From Bacillota bacterium (GTDB taxonomy: Bacteria; Bacillota; Clostridia; UBA1381): a DNA stretch of 64,000 nt. Of the stretch, positions 1,417-42,899 are shown in pieces. The position numbers and the translations under genes were made by a program. How positions within the stretch are numbered: the stretch's first letter is position 1; each line of letters starts with the position of its first letter. The DNA lies in NCBI GenBank assembly GCA_029007725.1, contig JAQXIJ010000061.1, positions 1 to 64,000 of the forward strand. The letters run 5' to 3'. Below the pieces are notes generated by a model, which saw only the letters and a list, made by a program, of their open reading frames with translations, ran no database searches and was not told the origin of the DNA.

Positions 1417-1423
1417 ATAGGTA

Positions 1424-1534
1424 ATCTTCGTGGCAGGGTGTGAGTCCCTACCGGTGGTTACAGTCCACGAGCAGCAATGCAGATTCGGTGTAATTCCGAA
1501 ACCGACGGTATAGTCCGGATGAAAGAAGAAAACC
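1424..1534 (+). promoter_or_regulatory. FMN riboswitch (RFN element)
   Basis: The segment carries the conserved RFN blocks in order: ATCTTCGTGGCAGGGTG, TCCCTACCGGTGGTTACAGT, CGAGC, GATTCGGTGTAATTCCGAA, ACCGACGGTATAGTCCGGAT and GAAAGAAGA. The first and last blocks close the P1 helix. FMN binding is expected to favour the terminator just downstream and so lower riboflavin uptake through ribU. Confidence 0.97.
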
Positions 1535-9510: not shown

Positions 9511-9546
9511 TAAAAAAGTCCCCTGTATGCTAAAAATACAGAGGAC
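9511..9546 (-). terminator. T-box regulated terminator
   Basis: On the minus strand GTCCTCTGTAT pairs with ATACAGGGGAC around a 7-nt loop (plus-strand arms 9518-9528 and 9536-9546), followed by TTTTTT. It lies between the T-box core and the acyl-CoA synthetase gene. Confidence 0.92.
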
Positions 9547-9785
9547 GGAAAATCCGTGGTACCACCTCAATTTGCCGATACCTCGCGGCAACGGCCTCGT
9601 CAGGTACGATTTCATACCCCAGCGCTGTTACGGGCGCATCCCGTTGCAGCCTACTCATTGCTTTTCGGTGCACGGCTCACGGAACGTAATTCGTATATAT
9701 TCTTTCCATTGTCTTGCAGCAACCGACAACTCTCTCAAGGTTCCGAATATAACTACTGATTTTCCGATCATAGCTTTTAATATTT
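9511..9785 (-). promoter_or_regulatory. T-box leader upstream of the acs-iorA-iorB-paaK-ACT operon
   Basis: Read on the minus strand, the leader has the main T-box landmarks. Stem I has an AGTAG on its 5' side, a GAGAGAG bulge and an apical GGTTGCTGCAAG. The T-box core AGGTGGTACCACGGA lies at 9553-9567, and a terminator follows. In the specifier loop, GAA (9690-9692) is followed by T and TAC (9686-9688), pointing to tyrosine. A TTA (Leu) reading is possible if the register is one base off. Uncharged tRNA should stabilise the antiterminator and turn the operon on. Confidence 0.93.
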
Positions 9786-9898: not shown

Positions 9899-10693
9899 AT
9901 GATTACAGACAAGAAAAATTTATGGGAAAATACACCGGGAATCTGCGATGAAATTCCTACAATAACCTCATACATACCGGAAAATAAAAAGTCGGATGCA
10001 GCAATTGTTATTTTTCCCGGCGGAGGCTATGCAATAAGGGCTGCGCACGAGGGCCAGGGATATGCAGAATTTCTGGCGGAAAACGGTCTCTGTGCATTTG
10101 TTGTAGACTACCGTGTGGCGCCGCATAAATTTCCACTTCCGCTCCTCGATGCAAGAAGGGGAGTTAGGACGGTTAGGTATTATGCGGAAAAATACGGAAT
10201 AGACAAAAATAAAATTGCCGTGATGGGGTCTTCTGCCGGCGGAAACCTTGCAGCCATTACTTCTACATACTATGATAAAATTGATTTTGAAGGCGCAGAC
10301 GAGATTGACAAAGAGGATTTCATTCCAAATGCTCAGATTTTATGCTATCCTGTAATAGATTTGATTGGTGAATATGCGCACATAGGCTCGACAGAAAATC
10401 TTCTCGGAGATCGCATTGACGAAATGGCTGAGAAGTTGTCACCTGCGATTATAGCCAAAAAGGGAACACCACAAACATTTATATGGCATACATTTGCCGA
10501 TGACTGTGTAAACGTCAATAATACGATAAAATATATAAAAAAGCTTAAAGAAATCGGAACGGACACAGAATGCCACATTTTTTCAAAAGGTGGTCACGGA
10601 CTTGGACTGGCGCCGGGAGATGATGATGTATCGAAAAATGTAGCTCAATGGGGCGGGCTTCTTTTGAAATGGCTGAAGTTTATCGGATTTTAA
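9899..10693 (+). CDS. Alpha/beta hydrolase, acetylesterase-like
   Basis: This 264-residue alpha/beta hydrolase resembles BD-FAE-type carbohydrate acetyl esterases and hormone-sensitive-lipase-like enzymes. FPGGGYAIRAAHEG (residues 39-52) supplies the oxyanion hole. GSSAGG has the nucleophile Ser112, HTFADDCVNV near 200 the acidic residue, and SKGGHGLG near 235 the catalytic His. There is no signal peptide, so it acts in the cytoplasm, perhaps on imported acetylated oligosaccharides. CGGAGGG precedes ATG 9899. It is divergent from the T-box operon. Confidence 0.88.
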   Translation: MITDKKNLWENTPGICDEIPTITSYIPENKKSDAAIVIFPGGGYAIRAAHEGQGYAEFLAENGLCAFVVDYRVAPHKFPLPLLDARRGVRTVRYYAEKYGIDKNKIAVMGSSAGGNLAAITSTYYDKIDFEGADEIDKEDFIPNAQILCYPVIDLIGEYAHIGSTENLLGDRIDEMAEKLSPAIIAKKGTPQTFIWHTFADDCVNVNNTIKYIKKLKEIGTDTECHIFSKGGHGLGLAPGDDDVSKNVAQWGGLLLKWLKFIGF

Positions 10694-10712: not shown

Positions 10713-10741
10713 TTGACAAGCCTATGGCGCCGTGCTATAAT
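10713..10741 (+). promoter_or_regulatory. Near-consensus sigma-A promoter of the leader-peptide operon
   Basis: TTGACA (10713-10718) and TATAAT (10736-10741) are both perfect hexamers with a 17-bp spacer. They start 20 bp after the esterase stop. Confidence 0.9.
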
Positions 10742-10772
10742 ATCTTCAATTAAAAAATATGGAGAAATCAAA

Positions 10773-10874
10773 ATGTATTCAAGAGAAAATGTCAGTTTAA
10801 TTAACATTCCCAGCGCTATTGTCCTTCTACTCCTATGCGGTGTAAAACGGAATAGCGCTATTTGTCGTGCTTAG
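10773..10874 (+). CDS. Candidate leucine leader peptide, 33 codons
   Basis: This short ORF starts 31 bp after the -10 box, with GGAG 8 nt ahead of the ATG. It encodes MYSRENVSLINIPSAIVLLL followed by LCG and ends at TAG 10872-10874. Four consecutive Leu codons, CTT CTA CTC CTA (10824-10835), include two CTA codons. They lie inside an inverted repeat AGCGCTATT (10812-10820) / AATAGCGCT (10851-10859). An intrinsic terminator follows 47 nt after the stop. The arrangement is that of ribosome-mediated attenuation sensing leucine. Coding status is inferred from layout only. Confidence 0.55.
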   Translation: MYSRENVSLINIPSAIVLLLLCGVKRNSAICRA

Positions 10875-10921
10875 TTGATGAAAGGATATACTTTGGTTTA
10901 AACATATTGCTGTAGACTTTC

Positions 10922-10959
10922 AGGGCTTGCGACCATAGCGGTTGTAAGTCCTATTTTTT
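10922..10959 (+). terminator. Leader terminator (candidate attenuator)
   Basis: AGGGCTTGCGACC (10922-10934) pairs along its full 13 bp with GGTTGTAAGTCCT (10940-10952), with three G-U pairs and a 5-nt loop. A run of six T follows at 10954-10959. It sits between the leader peptide and the first structural gene of the same operon, where an unregulated terminator would be pointless. Confidence 0.8.
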
Positions 10960-12967
10960 ATGAAGGATAGATATGATATGCAGAACATTAAGGTTGCAGA
11001 CGTGACATTAATAGAAAGCGAGAAAACCGCGGCGCTCAATTTCAAGGAAAAAATTGAAGTTGTAAAAGAGATTGACAGGCTTAATGTCAGTATTATTGAA
11101 ACAGAACTGGTAAGAAACAGAAAAACGTATGTGCTGTTTCTACATACCATTGTACCGCTTGAAAAAAACAGTACGATTTCATGCCCAATTGAGTTGTCTG
11201 AGGAATCCGTGGAAATTACGGCGGACGCAATTAAAGGTGCCGAAAAAAAACGACTTCACGTCATGGTTCCGACATCGTCTGTGCAGATGGAATATCTTTG
11301 CCATAAAAATTCAAAGGCAATTTTGGAAAACAGCGAAACTCCGGAACAGACGGTAAAAAATCTCAGTGCTTACATAAAACATATTCATATAAAGGACTCG
11401 GACGGCAGAGATTCGTACAGCATGGTGGGCGAAGGTTCACTGCTGATTCCGGAAATTATGAATGCACTGCGATCAATCAACTATAACGAATTTATGTCGA
11501 TTGAGTGGGATCCGGAATGGGACAGCGAAATTTCGGATATGGACATAATTTTCCAGCATTTTGTCAGCTATATGTCACGGTACGAAAACCTTTCTCGCAA
11601 AAAGTCGACTTTGTATGAAAACAGAGCCGGAACAGGTAAGGTTGTCTGGAAAAAGGACTCTTTTATCGAAAAGACCTTTTCTCAAGTGCTGGATAAAATG
11701 GTAGAGGAATTTCCAGATCAGCTTGCATTCAAGTATACTACACTTGATTATACAAGAACATATTTACAGTTTCGCGATGATGTAGATACATTTGCACGTT
11801 CGTTGGTTTCTATGGGGGTTAAGGTCGGAAGCCATGTTGCAATTTGGGCAACCAATGTGCCGCAGTGGTATATAGCATTCTGGGCAACGACCAAAATCGG
11901 TGCGGTTTTGGTAACGGTTAATACCGCATATAAAATTCACAAGCCAGAATATCTGATGAAGCAGGCGCATACGCATACGCTTATCATGATAGAGGGTTAC
12001 CGCGACTCAAATTACAGCGCCATTATGGCAGAGTTGTGTCCAGAATTGGGAAATACCAAAAAAGGCGAACAGCTTCATTCAAGACGTCTGCCGTTTTTGA
12101 GAAATATCATAACAGTGGGTTATGAGCAGAAGGGATGCATAACATGGGAAGACGCAATCAGACGTGCGTTCAAGGTGTCTGTGGAAGAAATACGGCGCAT
12201 GGCTGCCGCGGTAAATATCAACGATGTCTGCAATATGCAGTACACATCAGACACGACAGGCTTCCCAAAGGGTGTTATGCTTACACATTATAACGTTGTA
12301 AACAACGGAAAATGTATCGGTGACAGAATGGATTTGTCAACGGCAGACAGATTGATGATTCAAGTTCCCATGTTCCATTGCTTCGGAATGGTTTTGGCAA
12401 TGCCGAAAATTGAGTGTAAAATCGTTGATCCCGCAACAGGAGAGGATTTGCCGGATAATGTAACCGGAGAATTTGTGGCACGCGGCTATAATATAATGAA
12501 GGAATATTATAAAATGCCGGTTGAAACCGCAAATACAATCGATAAAGACGGATGGTTGCACACCGGTGACTTGGCGCTCAGGACACCGGAGGGCAACTAC
12601 CGCATAACTGGCAGACTTAAAGATAGATTATACGTGGTGGCGAAAATATTTATCCCAAGGAAATTGAGGAATTTATATACAATCATGACAAGGTTCAGGA
12701 CGTGCAGATAATCGGTGTTCCCGATGAACAGTACGGATAAGAAATTATGGCGTGCATAGTACTTAAAAATGGCAAAACCATGACAGCTAAGAAATGAAGC
12801 AGCATATACGCGATCACATGGCAGAGCATAAGATGCCGAAATATATCGACTTTGTTGATGACTTCCCAATGAATGCCGCTGGAAAAATATTAAAGTTCAA
12901 AATGCGTGAAGACGCAATGAATAAATTATGTATAAAAAAAGTAGAAGAAATAGTAACGGAGGAGTAA
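10960..12967 (+). pseudogene. Broken fusion: LeuA/HMGL-like, TIM barrel, AMP-dependent ligase
   Basis: The N-terminus (MQNIKVADVTLIESEKTAAL, likely start ATG 10978) resembles the 2-isopropylmalate-synthase/HMGL family, but the RDGEQ-type active-site motif is changed and the barrel is truncated. A piece of a sugar-isomerase-like TIM barrel follows (YIKHIHIKDSDGRDSYSMVG). Then comes an ANL ligase with YTSDTTGFPKGVMLTHYN. The ligase jumps from PMFHCFGMVLA to KIVDPATGEDLP, so its central part is deleted. After GRLKDRL the frame shifts; the correct frame continues [20 protein letters not shown], meets TAA at 12738-12740 and TGA at 12796-12798, shifts again and ends FPMNAAGKILKFKMRED. Several independent lesions make it non-functional. 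Its end still carries GGAGGAG, the ribosome site of the aminotransferase. Confidence 0.85.
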
Positions 12968-12970
12968 AAA

Positions 12971-14035
12971 ATGGAAATTAAAATTACAAAAACAACAAAC
13001 CCAAAAACAAAACCGACCGAAAACCTTGGCTTCGGAAAATATTTTTCCGACCATATGTTTATAATGGACTACGAAAAGGGAAAGGGATGGCATGACGCAA
13101 GAATAGTACCTTTTGCAGACATTTCAATGAGCCCGGCAGCCACAGTTTTCCACTACGGTGCAGAGGTTTTTGAAGGACTTAAGGCATATAGATGCGCAGA
13201 CGGCAGCGTTCAGTTGTTCAGACCCATTGAAAATGCAACGAGAATGAATAACTCGGCAGACAGAATCAGACTGCCGCAAATCCCGGTAGATGATACTATT
13301 CAGGCAATCAAGCAGTTGGTCGAAATCGATAAGGACTGGGTACCGTCCGGTGCGGGTGAGTCGCTCTATATCAGACCGTTTCTTTTCGGTTCGGATGCTC
13401 AGCTGGGACTGCATGAAATCAAGCAGGCTCGCTTTATGATTATCTGTTCACCGAGTGGAAGCTATTATGCTGAGGGAATCAATCCGGTAAAGATTATGAT
13501 TGAGGATGAAGACGTAAGGGCGGTTCGCGGCGGTACCGGCTACGCAAAGTGCGGCGGTAACTATGCTGCCAGCAATCGTGCCGGCGAAAAAGCAGAAAAA
13601 CTCGGATTTACGCAGGTTTTGTGGCTTGACGGAGTTGAAAGAAAATACATCGAGGAAGTCGGCGCAATGAACGTTATGATGAAGATTAACGGCGAGGTTG
13701 TTACCCCCATGCTGACTGGATCAATTCTTCCGGGAGTTACAAGAAAGTCAATAATTGAGCTGCTGAAATCAAAGGGTTACAAAGTAACCGAAAGAAGAAT
13801 CAGCGTAGAAGAAATTATAAATGCCCTCGAAAGCGGCGAGCTTGAAGAATTCTGGGGCTGCGGAACGGCGGCTGTGGTTTCACCTGTCGGCGAGCTGTAC
13901 TATGAGGGCAAAACATATGTTATAAACGACAACAAAATCGGCGAAACAACCCAGATGCTTTATGATACACTGACAGGAATTCAGTGGGGAAGAATTAAAG
14001 ACGAGTTTGGTTGGACAGTTAATTTAGGAAAATAA
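12971..14035 (+). CDS. ilvE: Branched-chain amino acid aminotransferase
   Basis: This 354-residue fold-type IV PLP enzyme (BCAT group II, usual length) transfers amino groups between Leu/Ile/Val, or some aromatic amino acids, and 2-oxoglutarate. Visible motifs are VFHYGAEVFEGLKAYR near residues 58-73, the PLP-lysine region GTGYAKCGGNYAAS near 189-202 and VLWLDGVERKYIEEVGAMNV near 216-235. GILPGVTR-type LPGVTRKSI follows. Its ribosome site lies in the tail of the preceding pseudogene, 3 nt before ATG. Context with the candidate Leu leader supports a branched-chain role. It could also supply the final step of aryl-acid salvage. Confidence 0.93.
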   Translation: MEIKITKTTNPKTKPTENLGFGKYFSDHMFIMDYEKGKGWHDARIVPFADISMSPAATVFHYGAEVFEGLKAYRCADGSVQLFRPIENATRMNNSADRIRLPQIPVDDTIQAIKQLVEIDKDWVPSGAGESLYIRPFLFGSDAQLGLHEIKQARFMIICSPSGSYYAEGINPVKIMIEDEDVRAVRGGTGYAKCGGNYAASNRAGEKAEKLGFTQVLWLDGVERKYIEEVGAMNVMMKINGEVVTPMLTGSILPGVTRKSIIELLKSKGYKVTERRISVEEIINALESGELEEFWGCGTAAVVSPVGELYYEGKTYVINDNKIGETTQMLYDTLTGIQWGRIKDEFGWTVNLGK

Positions 14036-14054: not shown

Positions 14055-14852
14055 ATGTACAAAATTTTAGACGCGCACTGCCATATATACCCAAGTAAAA
14101 TTGCAAGAAAAGCGTCAGACGCAACCGGACGCTTTTATGATACAATTTCATTGATGGACGGCACCGTTGACACTTTGGTCAAAGAAGGGAAAAATGCGGG
14201 TATTTCGCACTTTATAGTACAGTCGGTCGCAACTTCGCCGAAGCAGGTTTCGAGCATAAACCGCTTTATATCCGAAACGGTAGAAAACAGCGGCGGAACA
14301 ATGACCGGATTTGGGACGCTGCACCCAGACAGCGAGGATATTGAGGGAGATTTTGAAGAACTGAAAGCTCTCGGCTTGATCGGCGTCAAGCTTCATCCCG
14401 ATATTCAGGGCTTTAAGATTGATGATTACAGAATGCTGAAAATATATGAGCTGTGCGAGCACGACAAACTTCCGATTTTGATGCATACCGGTGATTCAAG
14501 ATTTGACTTATCAAATCCAAATAGGCTTGCACCGGTTTTGGATATATATAAAAATCTTGTAATTATAGGAGCGCATTTTGGAGGATATTCTATATGGGAC
14601 GAGGCCTCGCACAAACTGCACGGCTATGAGAATTTTTATGTTGATACCTCATCATCGCTTTTTGCAATGTCGCCGGATATGGCAAAGAAAATCATCTTTA
14701 TGTACGGTGTAGAAAAGGTAATGTTCGGAACCGACTATCCGATGTGGAATCCATCGGAAGAGATTGAAAAGTTCATGAAGGTTCCGCTGACTGACTCGGA
14801 GAGGCAAACCATTCTCTGGGACAATGCTGCAAAGCTGATAGGATTGAAATAA
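14055..14852 (+). CDS. Amidohydrolase-family metal-dependent hydrolase
   Basis: The 265-residue TIM-barrel protein belongs to the amidohydrolase 2 family (decarboxylase/hydrolase type). It begins ILDAHCHIYPSKIARK with the HxH metal motif. GVKLHPDIQGF near residue 115, PILMHTGDSRF near 142, IIGAHFGG near 173 and FGTDYPMWNP near 225 supply further metal ligands. No substrate can be assigned. It starts 19 nt after ilvE and probably belongs to the same operon. Confidence 0.85.
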   Translation: MYKILDAHCHIYPSKIARKASDATGRFYDTISLMDGTVDTLVKEGKNAGISHFIVQSVATSPKQVSSINRFISETVENSGGTMTGFGTLHPDSEDIEGDFEELKALGLIGVKLHPDIQGFKIDDYRMLKIYELCEHDKLPILMHTGDSRFDLSNPNRLAPVLDIYKNLVIIGAHFGGYSIWDEASHKLHGYENFYVDTSSSLFAMSPDMAKKIIFMYGVEKVMFGTDYPMWNPSEEIEKFMKVPLTDSERQTILWDNAAKLIGLK

Positions 14853-42592: not shown

Positions 42593-42699
42593 GATTATTC
42601 TCCTTATAACAAAAGAACGCAGGAAACTACAATATCATAAATGATACTGCAGCTCGCATACAGTTCATTTGTGACATTTTTAATATTAAATTTATCATT

Positions 42700-42840
42700 G
42701 CATAATTCCTTGTTTACAGATTACTCCATTGCTTTGAGAATTATGCTTTCGACATGACTGCCGTGGGACATCCGCCGATAAATTCGATACTCCCCATCCT
42801 CGTCAACCGGTGTCATCAGCTGGTTCTGGCGCTTCTTTTT
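42700..42840 (-). ncRNA. glmS ribozyme
   Basis: On the minus strand the leader reads AGCGCCAGAACCAGCTGATG, then GGTTGACGAGGATGGGGAGT, ATCGAATTTATCGGCGGATG and TCCCACGG. These are the conserved core blocks of the glmS self-cleaving ribozyme. Cleavage is expected between A (42833) and G (42832). Glucosamine-6-P is the cofactor. The 3' boundary (P4 region) is approximate. Confidence 0.96.
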
Positions 42841-42899
42841 ATCGATAAAACTGCCCAATATCCTTTCATAATATTTTGATGACAAAACAGTTTTATATT

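Follow-up and report, generated by a model that had tools for sequence, protein, structure and literature searches.

The leader region described here most probably (at a probability of about 0.9) acts as a leucine-responsive, ribosome-mediated transcription attenuator of the leuL type in an uncultured gut Clostridium. It lies in a stretch of 64 kb of DNA, called the window below. An earlier note on this DNA had proposed a leuL-type attenuator, a reading that is supported here; the case is indeed stronger than that note stated, given a longer antiterminator, conserved leaders and covariation. The features of the region are collected in the table.

Features of the leader and of the genes that follow it (positions in the window)
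Feature	Position	Strand	Remarks
Sigma-70 promoter TTGACA-N17-TATAAT with extended -10 (TG)	10713..10741	+	12/12 consensus match
Leader peptide ORF, MYSRENVSLINIPSAIVLLLLCGVKRNSAICRA	10773..10874	+	ATG, 33 codons, TAG
Segment 1 (AGCGCTATT)	10812..10820	+	partner of segment 2; proposed to lie under the ribosome stalled at the Leu run
Proposed regulatory Leu codons, CTT CTA CTC CTA	10824..10835	+	read in the leader ORF
Segment 2 (AATAGCGCTATTTGTCGTG)	10851..10869	+	overlaps the end of the leader ORF
Intrinsic terminator	10922..10959	+	13-bp stem (10922-10952), 5-nt loop, then T run
Segment 3 (TGCGACCATAGCG)	10928..10940	+	antiterminator partner; contributes to the 5' arm and loop of the terminator
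Pseudogene in which a deletion joins a LeuA-like N-terminus to a TIM-barrel/acyl-CoA ligase gene	10978..12964	+	
Intact IlvE type II branched-chain amino acid aminotransferase	12971..14035	+	Aminotran_4; full-length match
Amidohydrolase-2 family protein, intact, next gene of the conserved operon	14055..14852	+	

The consensus promoter, the 33-codon ORF with its four adjacent Leu codons and the 13-bp terminator are all present as the earlier note had described them, and a similar promoter precedes the leader in those relatives that have upstream sequence. A GGAG ribosome-binding site is located about 9 nt 5' of the leader ATG, and the short ORF sits between promoter and terminator; its translation is suggested by the coding constraint described below. 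The Leu run is enclosed by the inverted repeat AGCGCTATT/AATAGCGCT (10812-10820, 10851-10859). Among the 749 ATG ORFs of 15–60 codons in the window, two hold LLLL, and of these two only the leader ORF comes with a ribosome-binding site as well as a terminator downstream. A search for other copies of the leader within the genome gave none that was convincing. The hairpin could be read as simply ending transcription of the upstream gene (9899-10693), next to a short ORF that arose by chance, as it sits between two genes on the same strand; this has a negligible probability, however, because it lies 230 nt beyond that gene, past the perfect promoter and the leader ORF, and because the leader–terminator unit is still conserved in G001, G004, G006 and G008, where the upstream neighbour is divergent.

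The first part of segment 2 pairs with segment 1, and the antiterminator is predicted to form between CGCTATTTGTCGTG (10856-10869) and TGCGACCATAGCG in segment 3, with 11–12 bp and a small internal loop. Only the GTCGTG/TGCGAC part of this helix had been noticed before; the pairing holds, but the length of 6 bp does not.

Ribosome-mediated leader attenuation is best known from E. coli. In the mechanism proposed here, RNA polymerase would start at around 10748, and a ribosome would translate the leader peptide. With ample charged tRNA-Leu, this ribosome would pass the four Leu codons, reach the stop codon and cover segment 2; segment 3 would then pair with segment 4, and transcription would end at 10952-10959. 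Under leucine shortage, it would instead stall on CTT CTA CTC CTA and cover segment 1, freeing segment 2 to pair with segment 3 as this emerges and before segment 4 has been transcribed, and with 2:3 paired the polymerase would read on into the operon. If the leader were not translated, 1:2 would pair and the terminator would form. The anatomy, the conservation and the covariation of the leader are read directly from the sequences; that the switch responds to leucine, that the ribosome stalls and that transcription terminates are predictions.

The leader was found upstream of the homologous gene in seven of eight genomes of the genus (G001, G002 and G004–G008). Leader BLAST over nine same-genus genomes gave matches in G005 and G002, and the leaders of G001, G004, G006, G007 and G008 were found by reading the sequence 5' of the homologous gene, that of G007 being incomplete as it ends at the contig end. 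The leader peptides of the genus include MLKIKFFSLTSLLNAILLLSVVF, MMNVCKSIINNLLSVIALLLNSQENNAICRA and MSQAKSFNLINLLGAVLLILCGKSNSAVCRA. Six more distant leaders from Clostridia, different in sequence (L060, L062, L068, L074, L102 and L116), were recognised by eye among 80 loci, which were obtained by searching named genomes for matches to an alignment of the gene and belong mostly to rumen and gut Clostridia MAGs. Two other loci considered as Ile-rich leaders (L066 and L082) were dropped, since by eye they look like small membrane-protein genes. The relatives' leaders hold several Leu codons near segment 1, and each of the 14 leaders has a terminator behind it. With the window left out, a covariance model of the seven relatives recovers both the window (57.8 bits, E 2e-8) and the distant leader L102 (47 bits, E 2e-6). 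In a search of the same family (R1), the leader was found only in the genus, plus G064. Leader and gene in this last genome (G064:C63:5494-7055) are practically identical to those of G005, though G064 belongs to another genus, and the copy is probably a mis-binned contig or comes from the same species as G005.

Comparison with relatives, which the earlier note had named as a way to check its reading, revealed a conserved Leu run and also covarying stems. In the genus alignment, the antiterminator pairs are kept in 77 of 77 cells, compared to 21–81% when the pairing is slid; the 1:2 pairs are kept in 86% and those of the terminator in 95%, the terminator, which hardly differs between genomes of the genus, giving correspondingly little covariation. 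In a partner-swap test over the 14 leaders, in which each segment is paired with its own partner or with partners exchanged between leaders, the 1:2 helix has 108 of 117 positions paired versus a mean of 73 when swapped (0 of 20000 exchanges as good), and the loop-side half of the antiterminator has 45 of 45 versus 34 (1 of 20000). The GTCGTG/TGCGAC half is nearly invariant and therefore uninformative for covariation, while the newly recognised half has its partner in the terminator loop, on which the terminator itself places no constraint. As the original blocks had been chosen partly by eye, the test was repeated with fixed regions and free register: none of 20000 exchanges was as good for either 1:2 or the antiterminator over all 14 leaders, and over the ten diverged leaders the counts were 0 of 20000 for 1:2 and 4 of 20000 for the antiterminator, counts that are not strict probabilities because the leader sequences are related. 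These tests replaced an unaligned duplex-energy test, in which shuffled sequences often did as well and the antiterminator was not separated from them in most leaders. The predicted, mutually exclusive pairings 1:2, 2:3 and 3:4 are backed by covariation, little of it in the terminator.

The leader codons appear to evolve as coding sequence: 5' of segment 1, outside the helices, the pooled pN/pS of four close relatives is 0.19, from pairwise counts that are not mutually independent. In 13 of the 14 leaders the stop codon falls in or near segment 2, between -6 and +23 nt from the start of that segment (+36 in L060), with an exact position that differs; this is as the attenuation mechanism requires, the terminating ribosome masking segment 2. 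The switching was modelled by nascent folding, in which the RNA up to segment 4 is folded with the stretch under the ribosome removed. In the window, the modelled probability of the antiterminator is 0.00 without a ribosome, 0.93 with one stalled at the Leu run and 0.00 with one at the stop codon. For the stalled state it is at least 0.45 in 12 of the 14 leaders, being weak in L060 and L116, and in G005 and L102 some of the modelled antiterminator remains when the ribosome has reached the stop codon. For the complete RNA at equilibrium, the terminator is favoured in 13 of the 14 leaders even in the stalled state, and control would therefore have to be kinetic.

This coding constraint also bears on the idea of a T-box or another ligand-binding riboswitch that contains an ORF by chance, which we regard as highly improbable. 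Folded as a single sequence, the leader gives an unusually stable (z -4.2), multi-branched structure, but no Rfam family reaches its threshold, permissive E-values yield a single match at chance level, and the stem that closes the fold (10756-10778/10886-10908) uses a spacer that is shorter and unlike in relatives; since it has no Rfam match and its closing stem is not common to relatives, the stable fold is not read as a riboswitch. The T-box model RF00230 likewise has no match at the leader, in agreement with the earlier note, the one T-box nearby being about 1 kb away on the opposite strand. The long-range closing stem, a pairing of the window only, could hide the ribosome-binding site and start codon of the leader.

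It is very unlikely that the stalling senses a drug, general translation stress or amino acids other than leucine. Drug-sensing leader peptides are common in Firmicutes, which speaks for such a signal, as do the hydrophobic peptide with its conserved C-terminal SAVCRA/NAICRA and the Ile-rich leader of L068, which also contains Leu. However, SAVCRA is conserved because its codons are RNA segment 2, the leaders of G005, L074, L102 and L116 stop before it, and Leu codons are common to the leaders, with T-box counterparts that read Leu.

Behind the attenuator, what had been described as a LeuA-like relic does begin with a LeuA-like N-terminus, but this is only one end of a larger pseudogene, which carries a second deletion and a frameshift near 12.68 kb. 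Its counterpart in relatives is two intact genes, and the operon order of the genus is LeuA-like, TIM-barrel/acyl-CoA ligase fusion, branched-chain aminotransferase and amidohydrolase. The aminotransferase, also named in the earlier note, is branched-chain specific by family, its G005 orthologue exceeding the TIGR01123 cut-off; the LeuA-like and ligase genes have a putative role only. In this genome, the present target of the attenuator is most likely the aminotransferase.

The loss of the first gene raises the possibility, unlikely in our view, that an ancestral attenuator is decaying with it and that switching has been lost in this genome. Besides the pseudogene, this would fit the window leader being the most divergent of the genus, with the lowest covariance score (57.8 bits versus 118–164). 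On the other hand, every helix is intact in the window (9/9, 5/5 and 6/6 pairs), neither the promoter nor the ribosome-binding site, Leu run, terminator or T run has been lost, and both the aminotransferase and the amidohydrolase downstream are intact.

In the nine genomes of the genus (G000–G008), neither ilvC above its family cut-off nor LeuA above the TIGR00973 cut-off was found, and branched-chain 2-oxo acids may be formed by another route, such as reductive carboxylation. Another LeuA-type gene fragment is present on contig C20 of G000, behind a T-box of its own. In 85 aligned homologues of the LeuA-like protein, the LeuA allosteric domain is present and the HxH metal motif is absent, and the unit of LeuA-like and TIM-barrel/acyl-CoA ligase genes occurs in MAGs of gut Clostridia, Lentisphaeria and Synergistes (e.g., L019 5191-9048).

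The mechanism proposed for this leader is known; what is new is the lineage, gut Clostridia, and the gene family. The earlier note considered such an attenuator unusual for a Firmicute, and T-boxes are indeed common in this gene family, but leader-peptide attenuators for branched-chain amino acids are supported by experiment in Staphylococcus aureus, where a Leu-rich one precedes ilvD of the ilv-leu operon (PMC5794164), and in Listeria monocytogenes, where Rli60 is ribosome-mediated (PMC5864092). The S. aureus attenuator resembles the present one in its Firmicute host, short Leu-rich leader peptide, terminator, lack of a T-box and dependence on leucine (here predicted), and differs in its gene family, its class (Bacilli) and its mixed Ile and Leu codons; only there is the antiterminator proposed to pair with the poly-U tail, the terminator hairpin staying intact (PMC5794164). 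Rli60 is likened by anatomy, sharing a leader peptide with branched-chain codons, a 3:4 terminator, a competing antiterminator and (here predicted) super-attenuation on loss of the start codon; its 13-aa peptide, ilvD target and Bacilli host differ. The enterobacterial leuL (Rfam Leu_leader) has adjacent Leu codons in a leader peptide and the same 1:2, 2:3 and 3:4 pairings but a different sequence and target operon, and its covariance model does not match the window leader. In the literature searched, no leucine leader-peptide attenuator was found for Clostridia; in Clostridium difficile, His attenuation has been predicted upstream of hisZ (PMC4833913). The covariation across 14 leaders would extend leucine attenuation by leader peptides to uncultured gut Clostridia. 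In bacilli, histidine leader peptides occur in place of T-boxes at the hisS paralogues hisS/hisZ (PMC2965389), which are alike in having a peptide attenuator instead of a T-box at related Firmicute genes, but concern histidine, aminoacyl-tRNA synthetase genes and Bacilli.

A similar exchange is indicated for the LeuA-like gene family, within which, judging from the matches upstream of its members, the T-box is the common regulator, carried by most homologues of the first gene. Rfam finds T-boxes upstream of LeuA-like homologues elsewhere, and the specifier is CUC (Leu) in every one that was read from alignments of these upstream regions, so leucine would be the signal of the operon, which is widespread and uncharacterised. 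These CUC T-boxes (RF00230) share with the leader the tRNA-Leu charging signal and the gene family downstream, but they read the tRNA directly, without translation. In a tree of 85 homologues, the 13 attenuator rows all fall in one clade of 31 rows (SH-aLRT 94), which holds no confirmed T-box, while most rows outside it carry a T-box signature, a label that denotes a sequence pattern and is Rfam-confirmed in 11 loci (the regex match at L089 is probably spurious). From this clade and the CUC specifiers elsewhere, leucine as the signal and a change of sensor in the attenuator clade are well supported; the direction and number of changes between T-box and peptide are less certain. In G003, of the same genus, a T-box occupies the corresponding position, but it is doubtful as an orthologous swap, as the very long branch of its gene suggests a possible xenologue. 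That in one clade of gut Clostridia a leuL-type attenuator replaced a leucine T-box under the same tRNA-Leu signal, in an operon that is headed by a LeuA paralogue lacking its metal-binding motif and would be an undescribed leucine-linked pathway, has roughly even odds. T-box and peptide attenuator stand as alternatives upstream of one gene family, and their exchange could be dated and tested; if the replacement is true, the family would offer a natural series for studying the exchange of RNA sensors.

The T-box near the leader (9538-9780, minus strand) fronts genes for an acyl-CoA ligase, indolepyruvate:ferredoxin oxidoreductase alpha/beta and a PaaK-like protein. Its specifier is UAC (Tyr) in the Rfam register, as in G006, and a reading as Leu (UUA) was rejected on this basis. 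Ordinary Rfam matches in the window are an FMN riboswitch (1420-1534, plus strand) and a glmS ribozyme (42691-42844, minus strand). A further clade (L064, L065, L067, L069, L071 and L081) has neither a T-box nor a leader peptide upstream of the LeuA-like gene and holds there a conserved 5' region, in several members around CTTATAGTGCATAAGTGTT.
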